From: Gemmatimonadaceae bacterium
GTDB taxonomy: Bacteria; Gemmatimonadota; Gemmatimonadetes; Gemmatimonadales; Gemmatimonadaceae
Direction of reading: 5' to 3'
Assembly (NCBI GenBank): GCA_019752115.1
Contig: JAIEMN010000004.1
Coordinates: 186,001 to 250,000 of the forward strand
DNA: 64,000 nucleotides
Under the pieces are notes generated by a model, which was not told where the DNA came from, did not search any database, and was given only the letters and a program-made list of their open reading frames with translations. Positions 4,526 to 60,183 of the stretch are shown here, one piece after another (within the stretch, counting starts at the first letter, position 1; every line of letters starts with the position of its first letter). Made by a program: the position numbers and the translations under genes.

Positions 4526-4775
4526 TCGGAGGTCGGTCTACGGACATCTATGGACGGTGGGAGTCGGGATCGGGCTCGGAGGTGGGGGTCGGCTTGCCCG
4601 GGGCGAGCGCCTGCTGCGCTCCGTGCGCGGCGCTGTGCGCGCGTCGCTCCGTACCTCTCACACACTGCCTGATCAACGGAGCGCAGCACGCCCTCGCCCC
4701 CGGCAAGCCGACCCCGATTGTCCGACCAGCATCCCGACTCCCACGGTCCATAGTTGTCCGAACACCGAGCTCCGA
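4526..4775. repeat. Family-1 long palindrome, copy A (arms about 100 bp)
   Basis: The left arm 4526-4624 and right arm 4676-4775 are reverse complements with scattered mismatches. Shared blocks include GGGAGTCGGGAT, GGGGTCGGCTTGCC and TGCTGCGCTCCGT. The loop is about 50 bp. The outer parts of both arms match the palindrome at 30262-30503 (CTATGG, GGGAGTCGGGAT, TCGGAGGTGGGGGTCGG), which makes this a dispersed family. Transcribed, it would form a very large hairpin between hldD and the ABC importer. Confidence 0.88.
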
Positions 4776-17205: not shown

Positions 17206-17262
17206 GGATGGGTTGGGATTGCGCGGATGGGTTGGGATTGCGCGGATGCGTTGGGATTGCGG
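17206..17262. repeat. Three tandem 19-bp repeats beside a long hairpin
   Basis: GGATGGGTTGGGATTGCGC occurs at 17206 and 17225, and a third copy with two changes follows at 17244. The array abuts the long inverted repeat that starts at 17261 and begins 18 bp after the stop of the flavoprotein gene. Confidence 0.9.
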
Positions 17263-17405
17263 GGATAACGGAAACAGCACATGGGGATGCCACGGATGAC
17301 GCGGATTACACGGATACAGCTCGCGTGAGGTTGCTCACGCCACGTTACTCATCCGCGTAATCCGCGTAATCCGTGGCATCCCTGTCTGCTGTTTCAGTTA
17401 TCCCC
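17261..17405. repeat. Long intergenic hairpin (55-bp arms) between convergent genes
   Basis: Arms 17261-17315 and 17351-17405 pair at about 49 of 55 positions. They are built from words such as GGGGATAAC, GAAACAGCA, GGGATGCCACGGAT and ACGCGGATTAC. The tip carries a second perfect stem, GCGTGAG-GTTG-CTCACGC. It lies between the 3' ends of the flavoprotein and fasciclin genes and could end transcription in both directions. Its sequence is unrelated to the other long palindromes in the window. Confidence 0.92.
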
Positions 17406-17467
17406 AAGATCCTCTCCAGAAATCCACACAATCCCGTTCACCTATCACGCTGACGCGCGTGAACGCC

Positions 17468-29641: not shown

Positions 29642-29751
29642 GGCAACCCCTGAGAGTTCAGGGGGCAGATGATCAGGGGGAGGAGCTCAGGACCACCGCA
29701 GTCCTGAGCTCCTTCCCCTGACGTTCTCCCCCCTGAGCTCTCGGGGGTTCC
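29642..29751. repeat. Long intergenic hairpin (about 51-bp arms, 7-base loop) between convergent genes
   Basis: The left arm 29642-29693 and right arm 29701-29751 pair along nearly their whole length, with blocks GGAGCTCAGGAC and CCCCTGA-type words and one single-base offset. The loop is only CACCGCA. It lies between the M24 peptidase stop (29620) and the stop of the Cys-rich gene (29786). It would be a strong bidirectional transcription end, but it lacks a clean T-tract. Confidence 0.92.
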
Positions 29752-30127: not shown

Positions 30128-30577
30128 CTGGGCACTCCGGGAGGACGGTGGGGGTGGGAAGACCGGGGGTCTCTGGGTCGAATTTCGGATGGAGGGATGC
30201 GGGAGGGTGTCGGGGAATTGGCTACGGGGAGGGGGAAGTCGTCGGACAGGCTTGCCGTTCCGGAGTCGGATGTCGGAGGTCGGTTTCGGACCACTATGGA
30301 ATCGGGAGTCGGGATTGGTGTCGGAGGTGGGGGTCGGAGTGCCCTCGGCGGGAGCGTGCTGCGCCACGGGCCACGCTGAACCGCGGTCCAGCGGCACCGG
30401 CGTCGCCAGCAGGTAGATCGGCCCCGGCACTCCGACCCCCACTTCCGACCAGAATCCCGACTCCCAACTCCATAGTGGTCCGAAATCGACATCCGACGTC
30501 CACAGGCGGAGACCTAAAGCATGCGACGCCGAACCGCGCAGTACCTTCCCCTATCCGTCCCCCTCTCGCGCCCAATC
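30128..30577. other. 450-bp divergent gap dominated by a family-1 palindrome
   Basis: The gap separates the Cys-rich gene (minus) from the S9 peptidase gene (plus). More than half of it is the palindrome 30262-30503. The rest is GC-rich with no recognisable promoter or RNA. Reading frames crossing the palindrome on both strands mirror its symmetry and are not counted as genes. Confidence 0.75.
30262..30503. repeat. Family-1 long palindrome, copy G (arms about 80 bp)
   Basis: Left arm 30262-30343 and right arm 30427-30503 are reverse complements with few mismatches, sharing TTTCGGACCACTATGGA, GGGAGTCGGGATT and GTGGGGGTCGGAGTGCC. Outer blocks and some inner blocks (GGAGCG-TGCTGCGC) match copy A at 4526-4775. 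The central 80 bp differs between copies. It lies between two divergent genes, unlike the locus-specific hairpins that sit at 3' ends. Confidence 0.9.
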
Positions 30578-33330: not shown

Positions 33331-33446
33331 GAACGGCTCGCACAGAGCACGCAGGGGGCCACAGCGCACACAGGGAACAGCTTCAAAAAGTGAATGCGGT
33401 TCCCTGTGTGCGCTGTGGCCCCCTGTGCCCTCTGTGCGAGCCGTTC
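33331..33446. repeat. Long intergenic hairpin (48-bp arms, 45 of 48 paired) between convergent genes
   Basis: Arms 33331-33378 and 33399-33446 match at 45 of 48 positions (GAACGGCTCGCACAGAG, GGGGGCCACAGCGCACACAG). The 20-base loop is AT-richer than its surroundings. It sits between the stop codons of the S9 protein and the CxxCH protein. CACAGAG-like words are typical of such dispersed palindromes in environmental genomes, as far as I recall. Confidence 0.94.
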
Positions 33447-43671: not shown

Positions 43672-43791
43672 GGAGGGAATCTGGTGGGGGCGTCCAGTGG
43701 TGGGGGCAACCTTTCGTCCCATTGCGTCGATTCGGCACCGTGTGCGTTGAAATGGTGAGACTCGCGCCCGGCGTCGGCGCTAGGGTAGCGC

Positions 43792-44346
43792 ATGGCACAC
43801 AATCCCCAACGTCTCCTCGTGGTCCAGCGCGCCGATGCGCTGGTCATTGAGGTCCATCGCCTGGCCAGCCGCCGTGCTCGGCAGCTGAGCCAGCTGTCGC
43901 CTGGCTTGCGAAACCAGCTGCTCCGCGCTGTCGTGTCGGTGAGTGCGAATCTGGGCGAGGCGTGCGGCCCCCACTCGCCGCAGAAGGCGGCCTCGCAGAT
44001 TGATATTGCGATCGGCTCGCTGAATGAGGTGGAGCGTATGCTCACCCTCATGCAGCAGCTAGGCGCACTCGGCGAGGACGCCGGCGAACGTATTCGGGAC
44101 ACGCAGCAGGTGCGGGCGTTGGCCTACGGCTTCCGGCGACGTGTCCTGGGCACCCTCCGCCCCCAAGATCCAGATCGGACATCCGACCTCAGCGCCCGAG
44201 ACCGACTTCGGAGGCCCGATGGCTTTCGAGTTCTGATGTCCGATGATCTGGGGCTACTTTTGTCGCATGCGCCGAATCCTGCCCCTCCTCCTTCTCGTGG
44301 CTGCACCGCTCGTGGCGCAGCCGCGGGCCTCCGTGCGTGTGCCTGA
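43792..44346 (+). CDS. Four-helix-bundle protein (23S rRNA IVS/Avd-like) with a repeat-derived C-terminal extension
   Basis: The first 120 or so residues match the four-helix-bundle family: [40 protein letters not shown] and [19 protein letters not shown]. The family includes proteins encoded in 23S rRNA intervening sequences and the Avd protein of diversity-generating retroelements. It binds nucleic acid and forms oligomers. Members usually end soon after the fourth helix. Here the frame runs on through a repeat fragment (44170-44256) and past the start of the M24 gene (44267), giving an 80-bp overlap and a 184-residue product. No reverse transcriptase, variable gene or rRNA is present. Confidence 0.85.
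44170..44256. repeat. Family-2 repeat fragment at the 3' end of the four-helix-bundle gene
   Basis: The segment GCCCGAGACCGACTTCGGAG continuing into GCCCGA matches the right-hand part of the 135-bp palindromes at 49398 and 51471 (CCGAGACCGAGTTCCGAGGC, then CCGA) with about two differences. The flanking parts form their own inverted repeat: CCAGATCGGACATC on the left and GATGTCCGATGATCTGG on the right. The fragment overlaps the end of the four-helix-bundle reading frame and lies just upstream of the M24 gene. Confidence 0.8.
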
Positions 44347-49198: not shown

Positions 49199-49801
49199 CG
49201 GGGGAACGTATCCCCCGCCCTCAGACCTGCCAGCCGCAGCTTCCTCGCGTTGCGGCGAGGTCCATCCCGCGACGTCTATTACGGATCTCGGAAATCGCGC
49301 GCGTTGCCGTGATCGCTGGCGAATACGCGGCGCCGCGCAATCGCGCCGACAGCGCGTTTGGGTACGCAGTTGATCGGACCCTCTGAGTTCGGGCCCGGTC
49401 GGGCCTCAGAACTCGGTCTCGGCCACGGGAGTCAGACAACAGACTTCGGGATTCAGCCATCGACGCCGATGTCCGAGTCCCGAGGTCTGCGTACCGACAT
49501 CGGCGTCCGAGACCGAGTTCCGAGGCCCGACTAGGGCCTGAAGTCCGATATCCGACCTCTCCCCTTCGCAAACGGGGTTAGCGGGCTCGGCAACGCCCCG
49601 GGCGACGTGCCTGCTCGCAGTGATGAGGTCGGCACTCATCGATGAACGAAGGTTCACGCGCCGAACGCTTACGCGGCACGCCACGACGCCGACTATTCAA
49701 GGACGCAGCGACGGCCGTGTCGACCGCCTGCCCAAGTTCGTCGCAGCTGGAGGCCTGAGCCGACGACGTGGTCGGCGCGTACCGCTTACGCTGGAGTCGT
49801 G
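49199..49801. other. 603-bp divergent gap containing a family-2 palindrome
   Basis: The gap separates the kinase gene (minus) from a lipoprotein gene (plus). Its centre holds the 135-bp palindrome 49398-49532. The rest includes GC-rich sequence with no clear promoter, RNA or gene. The short frames here have no codon bias. Confidence 0.7.
49398..49532. repeat. Family-2 palindrome, copy J (135 bp)
   Basis: The 135-bp element starts GTCGGGCCTC and ends GAGGCCCGACT, with arms that pair as inverted repeats (AACTCGGTCTCGG with CCGAGACCGAGTT). It matches copy K (51471-51605) at 123 of 135 positions without gaps, in the same orientation. The right part recurs as a fragment at 44170-44256. No coding content or insertion-sequence gene is associated. 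Confidence 0.94.
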
Positions 49802-50617
49802 ATGCGTCGTGCCAGCTCCATCTCATTCGGACCGCTCGTGCTCGCCCTGTGTGCCGCGTGCACGTCCGCGGCCGACCGTTCGACCGGCCCTGACGTCCCC
49901 TCGCCGCCGGTGTTGAACGCCAAGCGAGACAGCGTTGTGTCGTTCACCGTGCTCGAAGGTGCGCTCGCCGCCACATGGTATCGCTGGACCACGATGCCAA
50001 CCCTTCGCATTGCGGCCAAGGCGGACAGCAATCGGGCCGCCGTGGGGGCAACGGTCTCGGTCAGCGTCCTGCGCGGCGGCGGCTCGGTCAGCGCCACACG
50101 CTTCGTGCTCGGCGCGGACGGAGAGATTCGCGACCTGCAATGGACACTGGGGCCGGACATCGGCCTGCAGCAGATCGTGCTGTCCGCCGCGAAGGGCCGC
50201 ACCGACACTCTCTCGGTAGTGGCGCGCTCCACGAGTCCCGAGCATCCAGGCGATGGCATCTACGTCCTGTTTGAGCAGTCCGGGCTGATGCTGCCGAGCC
50301 GCGCCAGCGGCATGGTCAGTGGTCAGTGGATGACCAACGCGATGCTTACGGGAGCGATCATCGATATTGTCGATCACCGCTTCACCGTCCGGCATCAGTT
50401 CGCGAATACCCAGCCGGCAGCCATGAGCGGTGAGGTGATCGAACAGGCCGACCGATCGTTGACGTTTGTGGCGATTGACGCCTCAGGCATGCGCGCGACG
50501 GTGGCCACCGGACGACGCGAAGTGAACGACGTGCTGACCTTGCTCGGGTCGTCGTCGACGGGGCCGTGGTTCGCGTATGGCCTGCAGAAGTTTGTTCGGG
50601 CGCAGGATCCGTTCTAA
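49802..50617 (+). CDS. Predicted lipoprotein of unknown function
   Basis: This 271-residue protein has a lipoprotein signal (LVLALCAAC) and a mature part rich in beta-strand patterns (VGATVSVSVLRGGGSVSATR). It resembles Ig-like surface lipoproteins but carries no known active site. GGAG lies 5 bases before the ATG. It is bracketed on the left by palindrome J. A 12-bp-stem terminator (50643-50680) follows the stop. It could be a surface or adhesion component, and the family is not recognised. Confidence 0.75.
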   Translation: MRRASSISFGPLVLALCAACTSAADRSTGPDVPSPPVLNAKRDSVVSFTVLEGALAATWYRWTTMPTLRIAAKADSNRAAVGATVSVSVLRGGGSVSATRFVLGADGEIRDLQWTLGPDIGLQQIVLSAAKGRTDTLSVVARSTSPEHPGDGIYVLFEQSGLMLPSRASGMVSGQWMTNAMLTGAIIDIVDHRFTVRHQFANTQPAAMSGEVIEQADRSLTFVAIDASGMRATVATGRREVNDVLTLLGSSSTGPWFAYGLQKFVRAQDPF

Positions 50618-50642
50618 CCGATCGACGGGCTCGGCGCGCCAC

Positions 50643-50680
50643 ACGCCCCGCTGACGGCCTCCGCGCCTTCAGCGGGGCGT
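50643..50680. terminator. Rho-independent-like terminator
   Basis: ACGCCCCGCTGA pairs perfectly with TCAGCGGGGCGT over 12 bp around a 14-base loop, 26 bp after the stop of the lipoprotein gene, and is followed by TTTG. It probably ends that transcript. Confidence 0.75.
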
Positions 50681-50904
50681 TTGCCGTTCAGCCGAACCGC
50701 GTGTGCATGTCACGTTGCGATACAGTGGAATTCACCCTGTTACGTCTGTTTCGAATTCAGGAAGACACGACCCGCATTGCAAGTTCTTGTCATTCAACGC
50801 TTTGCTTGAAATGGGGCGCTCGAGTACGCGAGGCGCGGCTTATGCCTGATGTGATGGCACGGCGGACGACCCGCCACACTCTTTCCTCGCTCACGGAACC
50901 GACC

Positions 50905-51438
50905 ATGCGCCTCCGCTCACTCCTCGGCCTCTTCGCCGTCGCGACGCTTGCTGCCTGCAGCAATGCCGACGTCACGGCGCCCACGGTTGCTGCCCTCCCC
51001 CGCCTCCAGGGCGGTTCGGGCGGCGGCATCGACACCTCGACGACCAGCGGCGGTGGTGGTGGCGGCGGTGGTGGCGGCGGTGGCGGCGGCAGCACGTCGG
51101 GCTCGTGCGGCACGCTCTCGGCCACCATCTCCACGTACAACATCGTGGTCTACACGACGCGCACCGGCATCGGCTTCAGCGGCAGCGCCTACAACTGCGG
51201 CACGCGCAACGAAGCGTTCGAAGTGGATGTGGTGGATACGGAAACGGATCCGGCCTGCGTCGTGAACGTCCCGCACTTCATCGCCGCGAAGAACACCGCG
51301 CCGGGCGGCACGCAGTTTTGGTCGGCCAACTCCACGCTCGTGCCCTGCCAGAACCGCACGCACACGTTCAACCTGCGCCTGTGGGATACCAAGAACGGGC
51401 AGACGCTGGATACCAAGACCGTCAGCGCCTTCCTGTAG
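50905..51438 (+). CDS. Predicted lipoprotein with a long poly-glycine tract
   Basis: This 177-residue protein starts with a lipoprotein signal (FAVATLAAC) and a flexible Ser/Thr/Gly linker that contains an uninterrupted run of 14 Gly. A C-terminal beta-rich domain of about 100 residues has six Cys that may form disulphides (GSCGTL, YNCGTRN, DPACVVN, VPCQNRT). The fold looks Ig-like. The start at 50905 gives the lipobox, and 50566 would add a soluble extension. It ends just before palindrome K and converges on the amidohydrolase gene. The family is not recognised. Confidence 0.78.
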   Translation: MRLRSLLGLFAVATLAACSNADVTAPTVAALPRLQGGSGGGIDTSTTSGGGGGGGGGGGGGGSTSGSCGTLSATISTYNIVVYTTRTGIGFSGSAYNCGTRNEAFEVDVVDTETDPACVVNVPHFIAAKNTAPGGTQFWSANSTLVPCQNRTHTFNLRLWDTKNGQTLDTKTVSAFL

Positions 51439-51470
51439 GCCATTCGTCGGACGTCCGACGTCAGGTCAAA

Positions 51471-51605
51471 GTCGGGCCTCCGAACTCGGTCTCGGCCACA
51501 GGAGTCGGAAAACAGACCTCGGGATTCAGACATCGCCACCGATGTCCGAATCCCGAGGTCTGCGTGCTGACATCGGCGTCTGAGACCGAGTTCCGAGGCC
51601 CGACT
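51471..51605. repeat. Family-2 palindrome, copy K (135 bp)
   Basis: It matches copy J (49398-49532) at 123 of 135 positions without gaps and in the same orientation. It sits between the convergent 3' ends of the poly-Gly lipoprotein and the amidohydrolase. Short flanking words (GTCGGACGTCCGACGTCAGG on the left, GAGGTCCGAGGTCCGAC on the right) look like further partial repeats of TCGGA/TCCGA. Confidence 0.94.
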
Positions 51606-51636
51606 CAGGCTGAGGTCCGAGGTCCGACTTTTCGCT

Positions 51637-53616
51637 CTAGAAGTCGGGGTCGCCGGGCTCGGCGATACCCCACGCGCCGAGTCCGCTCGCACCGCCGGCG
51701 CTCCCGGCGGCCTTCTCGAGTTCACTCACCGTGTACATCCGTCGCCCGCGAATGACCGTCTCGAGCTTGCTCAGGTCTGCCATGCGCTCCAGCGGATTGC
51801 CGTTCACGATGAGCACATCGCTCACCTTCCCCACCGCAACACTGCCGTAGTCACGCTCCTCGCGCATGATGCGGGCGGATTCGATGGTGGCGACCTGCAG
51901 AATCTTGGCCCGCGGAATACCGGCCAGCTCCATCATCGTGAGCTCGCGGCGATACGTCGTGCTCGCCGCGTTGTCGGTGCCCGCCGTGAGCGGGACGCCA
52001 GCGGCGTACAAGCGCCGCAGCAGGGTCATGTACGCCGAATCCGCGCGCAGCTGATCGCGGGAGCCGCCCGCCCCCACCGACGCGCCGCCGCCACCGATCC
52101 ACAGATTGAAGGTGCCGTCCACCACCGTGTTGTGCGCCTTGAGGTACTCGATGAGCCGCGTCATCGGGGCGCCGTTCACATCGATCGTGGGCGCCACCGC
52201 CGTCGCGACCTGCGAATACGCGCGCATCTGCGGCAGATAGAGCGAGTCCTGATAGAAGTTCGAGAAGAAGAACGCCGCGTGCTGGATCTCGTCGTAGCCA
52301 AGTCCCACCGCGGCCTCGATCGACAGGCCGCGCGGGATGTGTCCGCTCAAGCGCATGCCGCGCTTCTTGGCCTCGGCGGCAATCACCGGTACGAGATCGG
52401 GGTGCAGCACGTTGTACAGCTTGATCTGCTTGTAGCCGAGCGAGTCGTAGCGCGCGACCCAGCGCCGGGCTTCGGCTTCGGTGCTGACGACGGTGGCCGT
52501 CGGACCGGCCCACGCGAGCGGGCCTTCCATGAAACCGGCGAGGATGTAGCGCGGCGCCGCGAGTTTGCCGGCGCGTACGCGATCGCGCAATGACACGGCG
52601 ACATCCACATCGGCGGCCAGATCGCGCGCGGTGGTGATCCCCTGCGCGAGCTGCGTCATGCCGAAGACGTACTGCGTGGCCACCTGCGCGTGCGCATGCA
52701 TCTCCCACATGCCGGGCATCACCGTCTTGCCGGTGACATCCACCACGGTGGCGCCAGCGGGTACGGTGACGCTCGAGGCGGCTCCCACCTCGACGATGCG
52801 CCCGTCACGGATCACGACCGACTGCTGGGGCACGAGCACGCCGCGCTCGCTGTCGAACACGTTCCCGTTACGCAGGACCAGCGTGCCGACGTCCTTGCCC
52901 ACGGTCTTCGCTGCCGCTTCCGCGCGGGCATCACGCCAGCGCAGTTCGATGGCGCGCAGCGCCGGCATCAGCGGCACCACGTCCGGACGCACCGTGATGA
53001 ACCAGGCGATTTCGGTGGCCAAGAGCCCACCGCGTTCGTCGATCCACACGCCATACGGATTGGGGGTCGTGCCGCGATAGATCATCACCAGCCGGGCGCG
53101 CTGTCGCGCGGCGCCGCGGCGCAGCACCGTATCGGCAATGAGCTCGGCGCGCAGCGTCGGCCCACCGGCGATGCGCGCCGGGCGACGCTTCGCGCTGAGC
53201 AGCGCCTGCGCGAGCTCCGCTTGCGCCCACGGCGTGTCGCCGCGCAGCGCGAGCCAATCGGTCGCGCCGCGCGCACTCGCCCGTACGCCGCCAGGTCCGC
53301 TGGGCACCCCTTGGCGCACCGAGTCACGCGTGCTGCTGAACGCCTCGGTGGGTTCGCCGGCGGAGCCATCGGCCAGCACCGGGCGGGATTCTCCGCTGAC
53401 CACGCGACCGTCCGGACCGACGCGATAGCGGGTCTCGAGCCGTGTGCCGCGATTGCGGTCGGTAAAGACCCACCGCGCGATCACCGAATCGCCGCGATGC
53501 GTCACCACGAGGTCACCGGCCTCGCGACCGTGGTTGCTCACGATCCAGCGCGCGCTGTCGGCGGCGGATCCGTGCAGAACGGCCGCCATCGCGACCGAAA
53601 GCAGAAGAGTCGTCAT
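51637..53616 (-). CDS. Secreted metal-dependent amidohydrolase
   Basis: This 659-residue exported enzyme has a C-terminal amidohydrolase TIM barrel. The first metal motif is MHAHAQVATQ (HxH), followed by RLSGHIPRGL, EIQHAAFFFS and LTAGTDNAAS, which carries the metal-binding Asp. The flanking beta-sandwich strands include VLRNGNVFDSERGVLVPQQ and VGKVSDVLIVNG. About 230 residues precede the family core and hold a signal peptide plus an uncharacterised domain. The start at 53616 is chosen over 53742. The substrate is unknown; imidazolonepropionase-like members act on cyclic amides. Confidence 0.88.
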   Translation of the reverse strand: MTTLLLSVAMAAVLHGSAADSARWIVSNHGREAGDLVVTHRGDSVIARWVFTDRNRGTRLETRYRVGPDGRVVSGESRPVLADGSAGEPTEAFSSTRDSVRQGVPSGPGGVRASARGATDWLALRGDTPWAQAELAQALLSAKRRPARIAGGPTLRAELIADTVLRRGAARQRARLVMIYRGTTPNPYGVWIDERGGLLATEIAWFITVRPDVVPLMPALRAIELRWRDARAEAAAKTVGKDVGTLVLRNGNVFDSERGVLVPQQSVVIRDGRIVEVGAASSVTVPAGATVVDVTGKTVMPGMWEMHAHAQVATQYVFGMTQLAQGITTARDLAADVDVAVSLRDRVRAGKLAAPRYILAGFMEGPLAWAGPTATVVSTEAEARRWVARYDSLGYKQIKLYNVLHPDLVPVIAAEAKKRGMRLSGHIPRGLSIEAAVGLGYDEIQHAAFFFSNFYQDSLYLPQMRAYSQVATAVAPTIDVNGAPMTRLIEYLKAHNTVVDGTFNLWIGGGGASVGAGGSRDQLRADSAYMTLLRRLYAAGVPLTAGTDNAASTTYRRELTMMELAGIPRAKILQVATIESARIMREERDYGSVAVGKVSDVLIVNGNPLERMADLSKLETVIRGRRMYTVSELEKAAGSAGGASGLGAWGIAEPGDPDF

Positions 53617-53693
53617 GCCCGAAAGTGTGGCGCGGCGCCGGGATTCGGCTAGTCTCAAGGCATCGTTGCTTCCACCTCTTTCGGACTCCGTGC

Positions 53694-55115
53694 ATGTTCG
53701 CGCTCGATCGGCGTTGCCTCGCTCTGGTGACGTGCGCAGCACTCGCTGCCGTCACCCCCTCGCTCTCCGCTCAGCCCCGCGCGTTTCCCTCCGATTCGGC
53801 CATCCGTGCCGTGCTGGTGGCACGCGTGAACGGTGGCATTGCCCCGGGATACGCGGTCGGGCTCATCGACTCGACGGGCGCAACGCGCATCATCACCGTG
53901 GGGACCGGCGCAGGCTCAGCGCCAGTGGACGCGCACACGCTCTTCGAGATTGGCTCGATCACGAAGACGTTTACGGGCACCATCCTCGCGAGCATGGTCG
54001 CCGACCGGTCTGTCCGGCTGGACCAACCCGTCGCCGAGCTGCTTCCGCCGGGCACGCGCATTCCCGCTCGCGGTGCGCGGCAGATCACGCTGCTCGATCT
54101 GGCCACGCAGAGCTCCGGGCTGCCGCGCATGCCCGGCAACTTCGCGCCGAAGGATCCCACGAATCCGTACGCCGATTACGACGGCGCCCGCATGCTGAGC
54201 TTTCTCGCCAGCTACGAACTCACCCGCGATCCGGGCGCGGCGTACGACTACTCCAATCTCGGCGTCGGCCTCCTGGGCTATGCACTGGCGGCCCGCGCAA
54301 AGCAGAGCTACGAGCAGCTCGTGACCAAGCGCGTCCTGGCGCCACTCGGCATGCGCGAATCGGCCGTCGCGCTCACGCCGGCGCTGCGGGCCCGTATGTC
54401 CACCGGCCATGATGCCAGCGGGGCGGCCGTTCCCCTCTGGGATCTCGATGCCATCGCGGGCGCCGGCGCCCTACGCAGCAGCATCACCGACATGCTGCGC
54501 TATCTCGAGGCCAATCTCGCGGCCGATGTGGATCCGACCAGCGCGAAGACGCATGGCCTGGGCGCCGTCCTCGCCGACGCTCACGCGGCGCGCTATACCA
54601 AGGGGCCATCCGGCATGTCGTTGGGGCTCGCCTGGCATCGGCTGCCAGGCCCCGGCGGCGACACGATCGTGTGGCACAACGGTGGAACCGGCGGCTTCAC
54701 GTCGTTCCTGGGCTACAGCGCGAAGCGCAAGATGGGCGTGGTCATTCTGGCCAACTCCACGTCGGGCCCCGATGGCATCGCGATGCACTGGCTGGCCGGT
54801 GCACCCCTGCCGGCGGCGACCAAACCGCGGAATGCCACGCGGGCGGCCATCACCTTGCCCCCCGAGACGCTCGACCGCTACGTCGGGCGATTCGAGATCA
54901 CGCCGGCGTTTTCGCTCACCGTGGCCCGCACCGGCAACTCGCTCACGCTCACGGCCACGGCGCAGCCCACGTTGGCGCTGCTCGCCGAGTCTCCCACGCG
55001 CTTCTTCGTGCGCGAAGTCGAAGCCGACCTCGAGTACGAATTCGATGCCGCCGGCAACGCCGTGTCGCTGACGCTGCTGCAGCAGGGCGCCAAGATGCGC
55101 GGCGTCCGGAAGTAA
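53694..55115 (+). CDS. Secreted class C beta-lactamase-type serine hydrolase (AmpC/esterase family)
   Basis: This 473-residue exported protein has a signal peptide ending SLSAQPR and the beta-lactamase-C domain. Its nucleophile Ser-x-x-Lys is FEIGSITKTF, its Tyr-x-Asn is in YDYSNLGVG, and the C-terminal His-x-Gly is in WHNGGTGGF. It has the family lid segment LDQPVAELLPPGTRIPA. Residues 370-470 form a C-terminal lipocalin-like or jelly-roll addition seen in EstB/DUF3471-type enzymes. It may be an esterase, a peptidase or a weak beta-lactamase. The start at 53694 gives the signal peptide. Confidence 0.9.
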   Translation: MFALDRRCLALVTCAALAAVTPSLSAQPRAFPSDSAIRAVLVARVNGGIAPGYAVGLIDSTGATRIITVGTGAGSAPVDAHTLFEIGSITKTFTGTILASMVADRSVRLDQPVAELLPPGTRIPARGARQITLLDLATQSSGLPRMPGNFAPKDPTNPYADYDGARMLSFLASYELTRDPGAAYDYSNLGVGLLGYALAARAKQSYEQLVTKRVLAPLGMRESAVALTPALRARMSTGHDASGAAVPLWDLDAIAGAGALRSSITDMLRYLEANLAADVDPTSAKTHGLGAVLADAHAARYTKGPSGMSLGLAWHRLPGPGGDTIVWHNGGTGGFTSFLGYSAKRKMGVVILANSTSGPDGIAMHWLAGAPLPAATKPRNATRAAITLPPETLDRYVGRFEITPAFSLTVARTGNSLTLTATAQPTLALLAESPTRFFVREVEADLEYEFDAAGNAVSLTLLQQGAKMRGVRK

Positions 55116-60068: not shown

Positions 60069-60183
60069 ACCCGAAACCCGCAACAACCCACAACCGACAA
60101 CCCACAACCAGGAGCCCGAAACCCATAACGGATCAGTTTGGGGTTTCGGGCTTTTGGTTGTGGGTTGTGGGTGGATTTCGGGT
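60069..60183. repeat. Long intergenic hairpin at the 3' end of the CBM9 gene
   Basis: The left arm 60069-60124 and right arm 60140-60183 pair in blocks (ACCCGAAA, CCCACAACC and GCCCGAAACCC against their complements) with an extra 11 bp on the left. Words like CAACCCACAACC are repeated inside the arm. The right arm reaches the stop codon of the CBM9 gene, so it should form at the end of that mRNA. Confidence 0.9.

Follow-up and report, generated by a model that had tools for sequence, protein, structure and literature searches.

The short tandemly repeated repetitive sequences (STRRs) of cyanobacteria belong to the heptanucleotide repeats of bacteria. Others are GGGAATC in Xanthomonas and GGGGA(C/T)T in Nostoc, which form many inverted pairs (70 inverted heptamer-repeat pairs in X. 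campestris) and have no known cause (PMC4692102), and TAACTGA, which occurs as heptamer arrays in bacteria (PMC4679880). The intervening sequence (IVS) of Coxiella has an open reading frame (ORF) laid out in a stem inside the 23S rRNA, and there are older suggestions of its mobility (PMC4990558); the Pfam family PF05635 resembles Avd according to a review (PMC10053308). Here we analyzed a 64,000-nt stretch from a Gemmatimonadaceae bacterium (the window; coordinates count from its first letter) that carries two copies, J and K, of a palindrome that we call family 2, as well as a PF05635 gene for a 23S rRNA intervening-sequence protein (IVP). We assign a probability of about 0.62 to the reading that J and K belong to a class of palindromic elements whose gene-bearing form holds an IVP gene, and are themselves decaying members without the gene. 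The following features are concerned:

49370 to 49556 (approximate ends), no strand: full family-2 unit of copy J, core 49398-49532, a gene-less palindrome with degenerate heptamer arms
51447 to 51628 (approximate ends), no strand: full family-2 unit of copy K, core 51471-51605, at the 3' end of a minus-strand gene
49538 to 49619, no strand: right flank of J, 71% homologous to the right flank of K (51610-51691), a remnant of a gene 3' end
43792 to 44346, plus strand: PF05635 ORF (IVP, four-helix bundle; Pfam E 1.8e-15), the parent candidate for family 2
43720 to 43791, plus strand: IVP leader with the motif GCGTNNGAATGGTGA and a -10-like TAGGGT right before the ATG, judged by eye and with no statistical score
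44170 to 44256, no strand: family-2 arm fragment or hairpin over or just 3' of the IVP gene end; no matching left arm remains

The cores of J and K are identical at 123 of 135 positions in an ungapped alignment, as expected from the original prediction of two copies with 91% identity, and both form one long hairpin, at about -117 kcal/mol each, which agrees with the large inverted repeat that had been proposed for both. The best autocorrelation lag was 7 bases in J (shuffle p 0.007) and in K (shuffle p 0.038). The identity continues into the right flanks of the two copies (71% over 82 bp, E 2e-10); in K, this is where the gene at 51637-53742 has its 3' end, and in J, a decayed piece of a like kind is left. 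Since these flanks are homologous and that of K is a gene 3' end, the J/K pair probably originated, as far as can be judged from the sequence, by local duplication of the palindrome together with the gene end.

We rejected a segmental duplication as the whole explanation, as it fits the J/K pair and not the rest of family 2. A search of the whole source genome (G000) revealed 16 family-2 sites, 12 of them full length, which is far beyond chance. The idea that there might be only two copies, lying in a recent duplication, is therefore wrong in the copy number, and a local duplication is probable for J and K. According to the alignment of copies with their flanks, the full unit is about 182-187 bp long and has the termini TTGATCGGAC...GTCCGATCAA in the best copies; the sequences outside these ends are unrelated. 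Apart from paralogous coding segments, the copies besides J and K have no flank homology that would imply a larger duplication, so these sites are independent. There is no gene within reach at any of the 16 sites, and 4 of the 12 sites classified by gene context are in divergent gaps. Many copies have GATC at both ends, a possible terminal signature or target. Local clustering of the copies was dropped as a sign of local hopping because clusters of another arm family, group D, recur at an equal spacing of 2.5 kb in several species and may follow gene duplications. A metagenome-assembled genome (MAG) placed in another genus (L061, G061:C176) has 171 bases identical to copy J, probably through binning contamination.

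In the alignment of the 12 full copies, 90.5% of the cells were paired, and 19 base pairs were changed on both sides, compared with a mean of 11.3 after shuffling (0/500 shuffles). Sliding the partners by one column reduced the pairing to ≤54%, a control that favours the structure, since structure and test share one alignment. The number of sites and the covariation in the stems bear out the original prediction of a dispersed, gene-less element that keeps its hairpin. Arm-to-arm correction could be an alternative source of the both-sided changes.

It had also been noted that no insertion-sequence gene is present. A parent-like gene does lie in the window, about 5 kb from J; it is the PF05635 gene and not an insertion-sequence gene. 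Its ORF scored 57.5 bits (curated PF05635 cut-off: 33.8) with a Pfam match at residues 7-103, and solved PDB relatives of the protein are 2gsc and 2rld. The end of this ORF runs into the fragment at 44170-44256, which had been recognized before as related to J and K; indeed, it matches family 2 with 86% identity over 37 bp and 70% over 70 bp, and its best lag is 7 (shuffle p 0.003). When J and K were compared with the regions flanking the 87 IVP genes of a genus-wide sample that included G000, the window IVP gene was the best match, with a score of 49 compared with a median of 20, and the second best was an IVP gene from the same protein clade. These sequence similarities make the window IVP gene the nearest candidate parent of family 2.

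To characterize the layout of IVP genes, we used the same genus sample and an inverted-repeat score threshold of 34, the maximum of 297 shifted windows. In total, 73/87 IVP genes were located between long inverted repeats scoring >34, whereas 0/297 shifted windows and 0/75 non-IVP genes in the same loci exceeded this value; the arms had a median length of 99 bp and 82% identity. All of the seven PF05635 genes of G000 except the window's own are flanked by inverted arms, whose sequences differ between genes (by eye). The layout is constant: the left arm ends about 75-115 bases before the matched domain and is followed by a GCGTNNGAATGGTGA-like leader, the ORF, and the right arm, located at the stop codon or directly behind it. 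Two spaced copies of GCGTNNGAATGGTGA were seen by eye upstream of the gene in many relatives. In a sample of 80 IVP loci from many phyla, arms scoring >34 were found at 50 of 78 loci vs 5 of 269 shifted windows and were usually about 30 bp long. A crude motif scan of these 80 loci gave no convincing 23S rRNA context, and an Rfam scan of the window gave no match.

The arms have a seven-base period. Lag 7 was the best period in 41/48 phylum-wide arms compared with 8/173 equal-length controls, and in 39/73 genus arms compared with 8/281 controls. The mean value of the phylum-wide arms was 0.73 at lags 7, 14 and 21, and the excess at lags 7 and 14 persisted without selecting for inverted repeats. 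The words differ between organisms, being GGGATTC in Rhodanobacter arrays, GGGAGTC in Phormidium, and GTGGTTA in Thiohalocapsa and Ruminococcus. Some arms (L196) resemble plant telomere words (GGGATTA, GGGGTTA), which is likely a coincidence of G-rich heptamers.

Heptamer arrays might also grow by replication slippage and quasi-palindrome correction, with IVP genes merely lying inside them and with recombination or duplication alone spreading them. The outer arms of orthologous elements do differ as tandem words, J and K share a duplicated flank, and arm-to-arm correction could yield the covariation as well. We nevertheless consider this explanation improbable: one protein family has the same layout in many phyla and other genes are never so flanked, the 5' arm is G-rich in 44/49 phylum-wide and 63/71 genus cases (arms with non-zero skew), and the IVP protein is under strong purifying selection (dN/dS 0.05-0.19 in 18 pairs).

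Three further observations concern single IVP loci. In L080, L082 and L083, arrays of 120 bp repeats are present on both sides of the IVP genes; G015 has identical IVP domains at two loci; and on the right side of the IVP gene L025 (G000:C62), a C-rich arm is followed by CTGATCAG and then again by a G-rich arm, like two joined element ends.

Gene-less palindromes with the arms of IVP genes are not limited to family 2. The window contains four of them:

4526 to 4775, no strand: gene-less family-1 palindrome with arms as in the IVP gene G000:C11:5283-5971
30268 to 30501, no strand: second gene-less family-1 palindrome, with the arms of the same C11 IVP gene
29645 to 29749, no strand: gene-less palindrome that shares its arms with the IVP gene G000:C32:138501 (L027), E ~1e-12
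60074 to 60177, no strand: gene-less heptamer palindrome (ACAACCC) with similarity to the arms of the IVP gene G000:C62:23336 (L025), E 1e-9

Family 1 was found at 11 places, one of them with a gene, and the palindrome at 60074-60177 had a value of 0.65 at lag 7. Group D arms are present in 9-10 genomes; in the single-contig genome G002, they form 12 gene-less sites whose contexts are unrelated, and one further copy, downstream of rpoC, bears the gene. In a planctomycete MAG, an arm occurs at >40 places, with the gene at one of those inspected. Thus, the arm families sampled consist of dispersed gene-less palindromes, usually with one gene-bearing copy. For two other palindromes of the window, 17254-17412 and 33331-33446, no match to any IVP arm was found in G000, and lag 7 was not their best period. 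Their arms are 85% and 92% complementary, respectively, and they are perhaps footprints of lost elements; the latter contains CACAGAG/CACGCAG words, which resemble those of a palindrome found instead of group D at the L270 site of three species.

We compared the same sites between species. The 3' end of rpoC carries an IVP element in 13 genomes, in both orientations, whereas about 40 codons of the IVP gene are left in G022, G000 (L240, G000:C7) has a palindrome with L028 arms and no gene, and the site is nearly empty in G001. This is a recurrent site: depending on the species, it holds the element, a deletion derivative, a palindrome without the gene, or almost nothing. At the L268 site, a palindrome lies between convergent genes in G002 and its relatives, and the site is empty in G028; the flank of G028 is 76-84% identical to those of the relatives, a divergence too great for reading a target-site duplication.

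These sites bear on the explanation that the palindromes are functional intergenic hairpins, i.e., bidirectional terminators or stabilizers of mRNA ends selected at gene 3' ends, with IVP as a binding regulator and no mobility. Each of the 10 classifiable group-D sites lies next to the 3' end of a gene (6 convergent, 4 codirectional, 0 divergent). For IVP elements, divergent gaps are rare (3, compared with 36 convergent and 27 codirectional); furthermore, sites are conserved between species and the stems covary. Against this, a third of the 12 family-2 sites are in divergent gaps, unrelated palindrome families swap at one site (L270), and the L268 site is empty in a relative. In addition, A.C mismatches in the arms outnumber G.U mismatches on the sense strand of the gene (373 vs 270), so that selection for an RNA hairpin is not apparent; on this ground, we rejected the sense-strand RNA hairpin as the selected form. 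Taken together, a purely functional role without mobility seems unlikely to us, albeit not negligible.

The family had originally been assigned to a REP/MITE type (repetitive extragenic palindromic sequences; miniature inverted-repeat transposable elements). The gene-less dispersed element of this assignment was confirmed, but it is not of the REP/RAYT type: RAYT (Y1 transposase, PF01797) was found in 8/30 genomes only, and neither G000 nor any of the single-contig genomes G001-G003 is among them. For G000, movement by RAYT is thereby refuted, barring the incomplete 3% of the assembly. Reverse transcriptase (RT) is absent from G001-G003 and from most genomes of the genus, while G000 has one on another contig. 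RAYT and RT were both rejected as movers, since they are missing from complete genomes bearing the repeats. An autonomous transposon with these ends was not found, IS families not having been searched one by one. Intergenic palindromes dispersed without their own gene are what ordinary REPs or REPINs (REP doublets forming hairpins) moved by RAYT, or MITEs of an insertion sequence, would look like, but the arms match IVP flanks instead, and we consider such an origin highly improbable (IS transposases other than RAYT were not searched one by one).

Returning to the IVP-bearing element class, a complete element would consist of a 5' arm, a short leader with a promoter, the IVP gene and a 3' arm, the arms being inverted repeats of tandem seven-base words. 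We infer that the arms, probably in the form of a single-stranded DNA hairpin, are bound in seven-base register by the IVP protein, which would promote their mobility in trans: arms with or without the gene would be copied into new intergenic places with its help. The copying would be performed by host enzymes, as the IVP family has no recognized nuclease. The palindromes would then follow the IVP gene as their master, parallel to REPINs and RAYT but with an unrelated protein, and J and K would probably have doubled later through the small local duplication.

Several points weigh against this interpretation. The window IVP gene keeps a right-arm fragment only, so its role as a parent rests on partial similarity (37-70 bp). 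Arm and protein similarity of non-orthologous elements are linked weakly (rho 0.05, Mantel-like p 0.10); co-diversification of arms and proteins, detectable mainly above 45% protein identity, was not used as support. The compared genomes revealed neither a transposition event nor an intermediate or a target-site duplication, and the IVP protein is not known to have a catalytic site. Most group-D sites are common to several species, which makes movement rare or old. Finally, the rpoC 3' end holds different families in different species, and the hairpin may have a local role there.

More tentatively, and with somewhat less than even odds in our estimate, many bacterial heptanucleotide repeats and long intergenic palindromes (GGGAATC, STRRs) would be arms or footprints of a single ancient, phylum-spanning class of selfish elements, whose sole gene codes for an IVP reading DNA in seven-base steps, and the 23S IVSs would be members that landed in rRNA. 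The layout seen in many phyla may thus connect two old puzzles, the role of the IVP protein and the abundance of seven-base repeats. It would offer a testable role for a very common protein family of unexplained function, a candidate mover for repeats whose abundance lacked an accepted explanation, and a possible path of intervening sequences into 23S rRNA genes. Dispersal of repeats in the REPIN/RAYT style by a protein without a known nuclease would also imply new chemistry.

How do these elements compare with known systems? Like the bacterial heptanucleotide repeats (PMC4692102, PMC4679880), whose origin and mover are unexplained, the arms consist of tandem seven-base words, are intergenic and often form inverted pairs; the GGGATTC arms of Rhodanobacter and the GGGAGTC arms of Phormidium IVP genes are comparable. 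The IVP/four-helix family is unmentioned in the text of these two papers, and the link is known here from genera other than Xanthomonas and Nostoc. We found no paper in the open literature linking IVP genes to heptamer palindromes; most subscription papers were outside this search, and the novelty is provisional. Avd of diversity-generating retroelements has a related four-helix-bundle fold and belongs to a related family (PMC10053308), but it works with a reverse transcriptase, which most genomes of this genus do not have. Unlike MITEs of DNA transposons, the palindromes share their arms with IVP-bearing elements that encode no recognized transposase. The REPIN/RAYT system (PMC3116915) is similar in its single-copy gene flanked by repeats, in its many dispersed gene-less hairpins and in the fact that the gene itself multiplies little; however, RAYT is a Y1 (HuH) transposase, whereas no nuclease is known for the four-helix-bundle protein here, and heptamer arrays make up the arms. 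The 23S rRNA IVSs with an S23/IVP ORF (Leptospira, Coxiella; PMC4990558) share the protein family and a long stem whose loop holds the ORF; in Coxiella, this stem is made by terminal inverted repeats of 28 bp (PMC4990558). RNase III excises these IVSs from the 23S rRNA in which they lie, while the elements described here are free-standing between genes; they have heptamer arms, a leader and promoter of their own, and derivatives dispersed without the gene.
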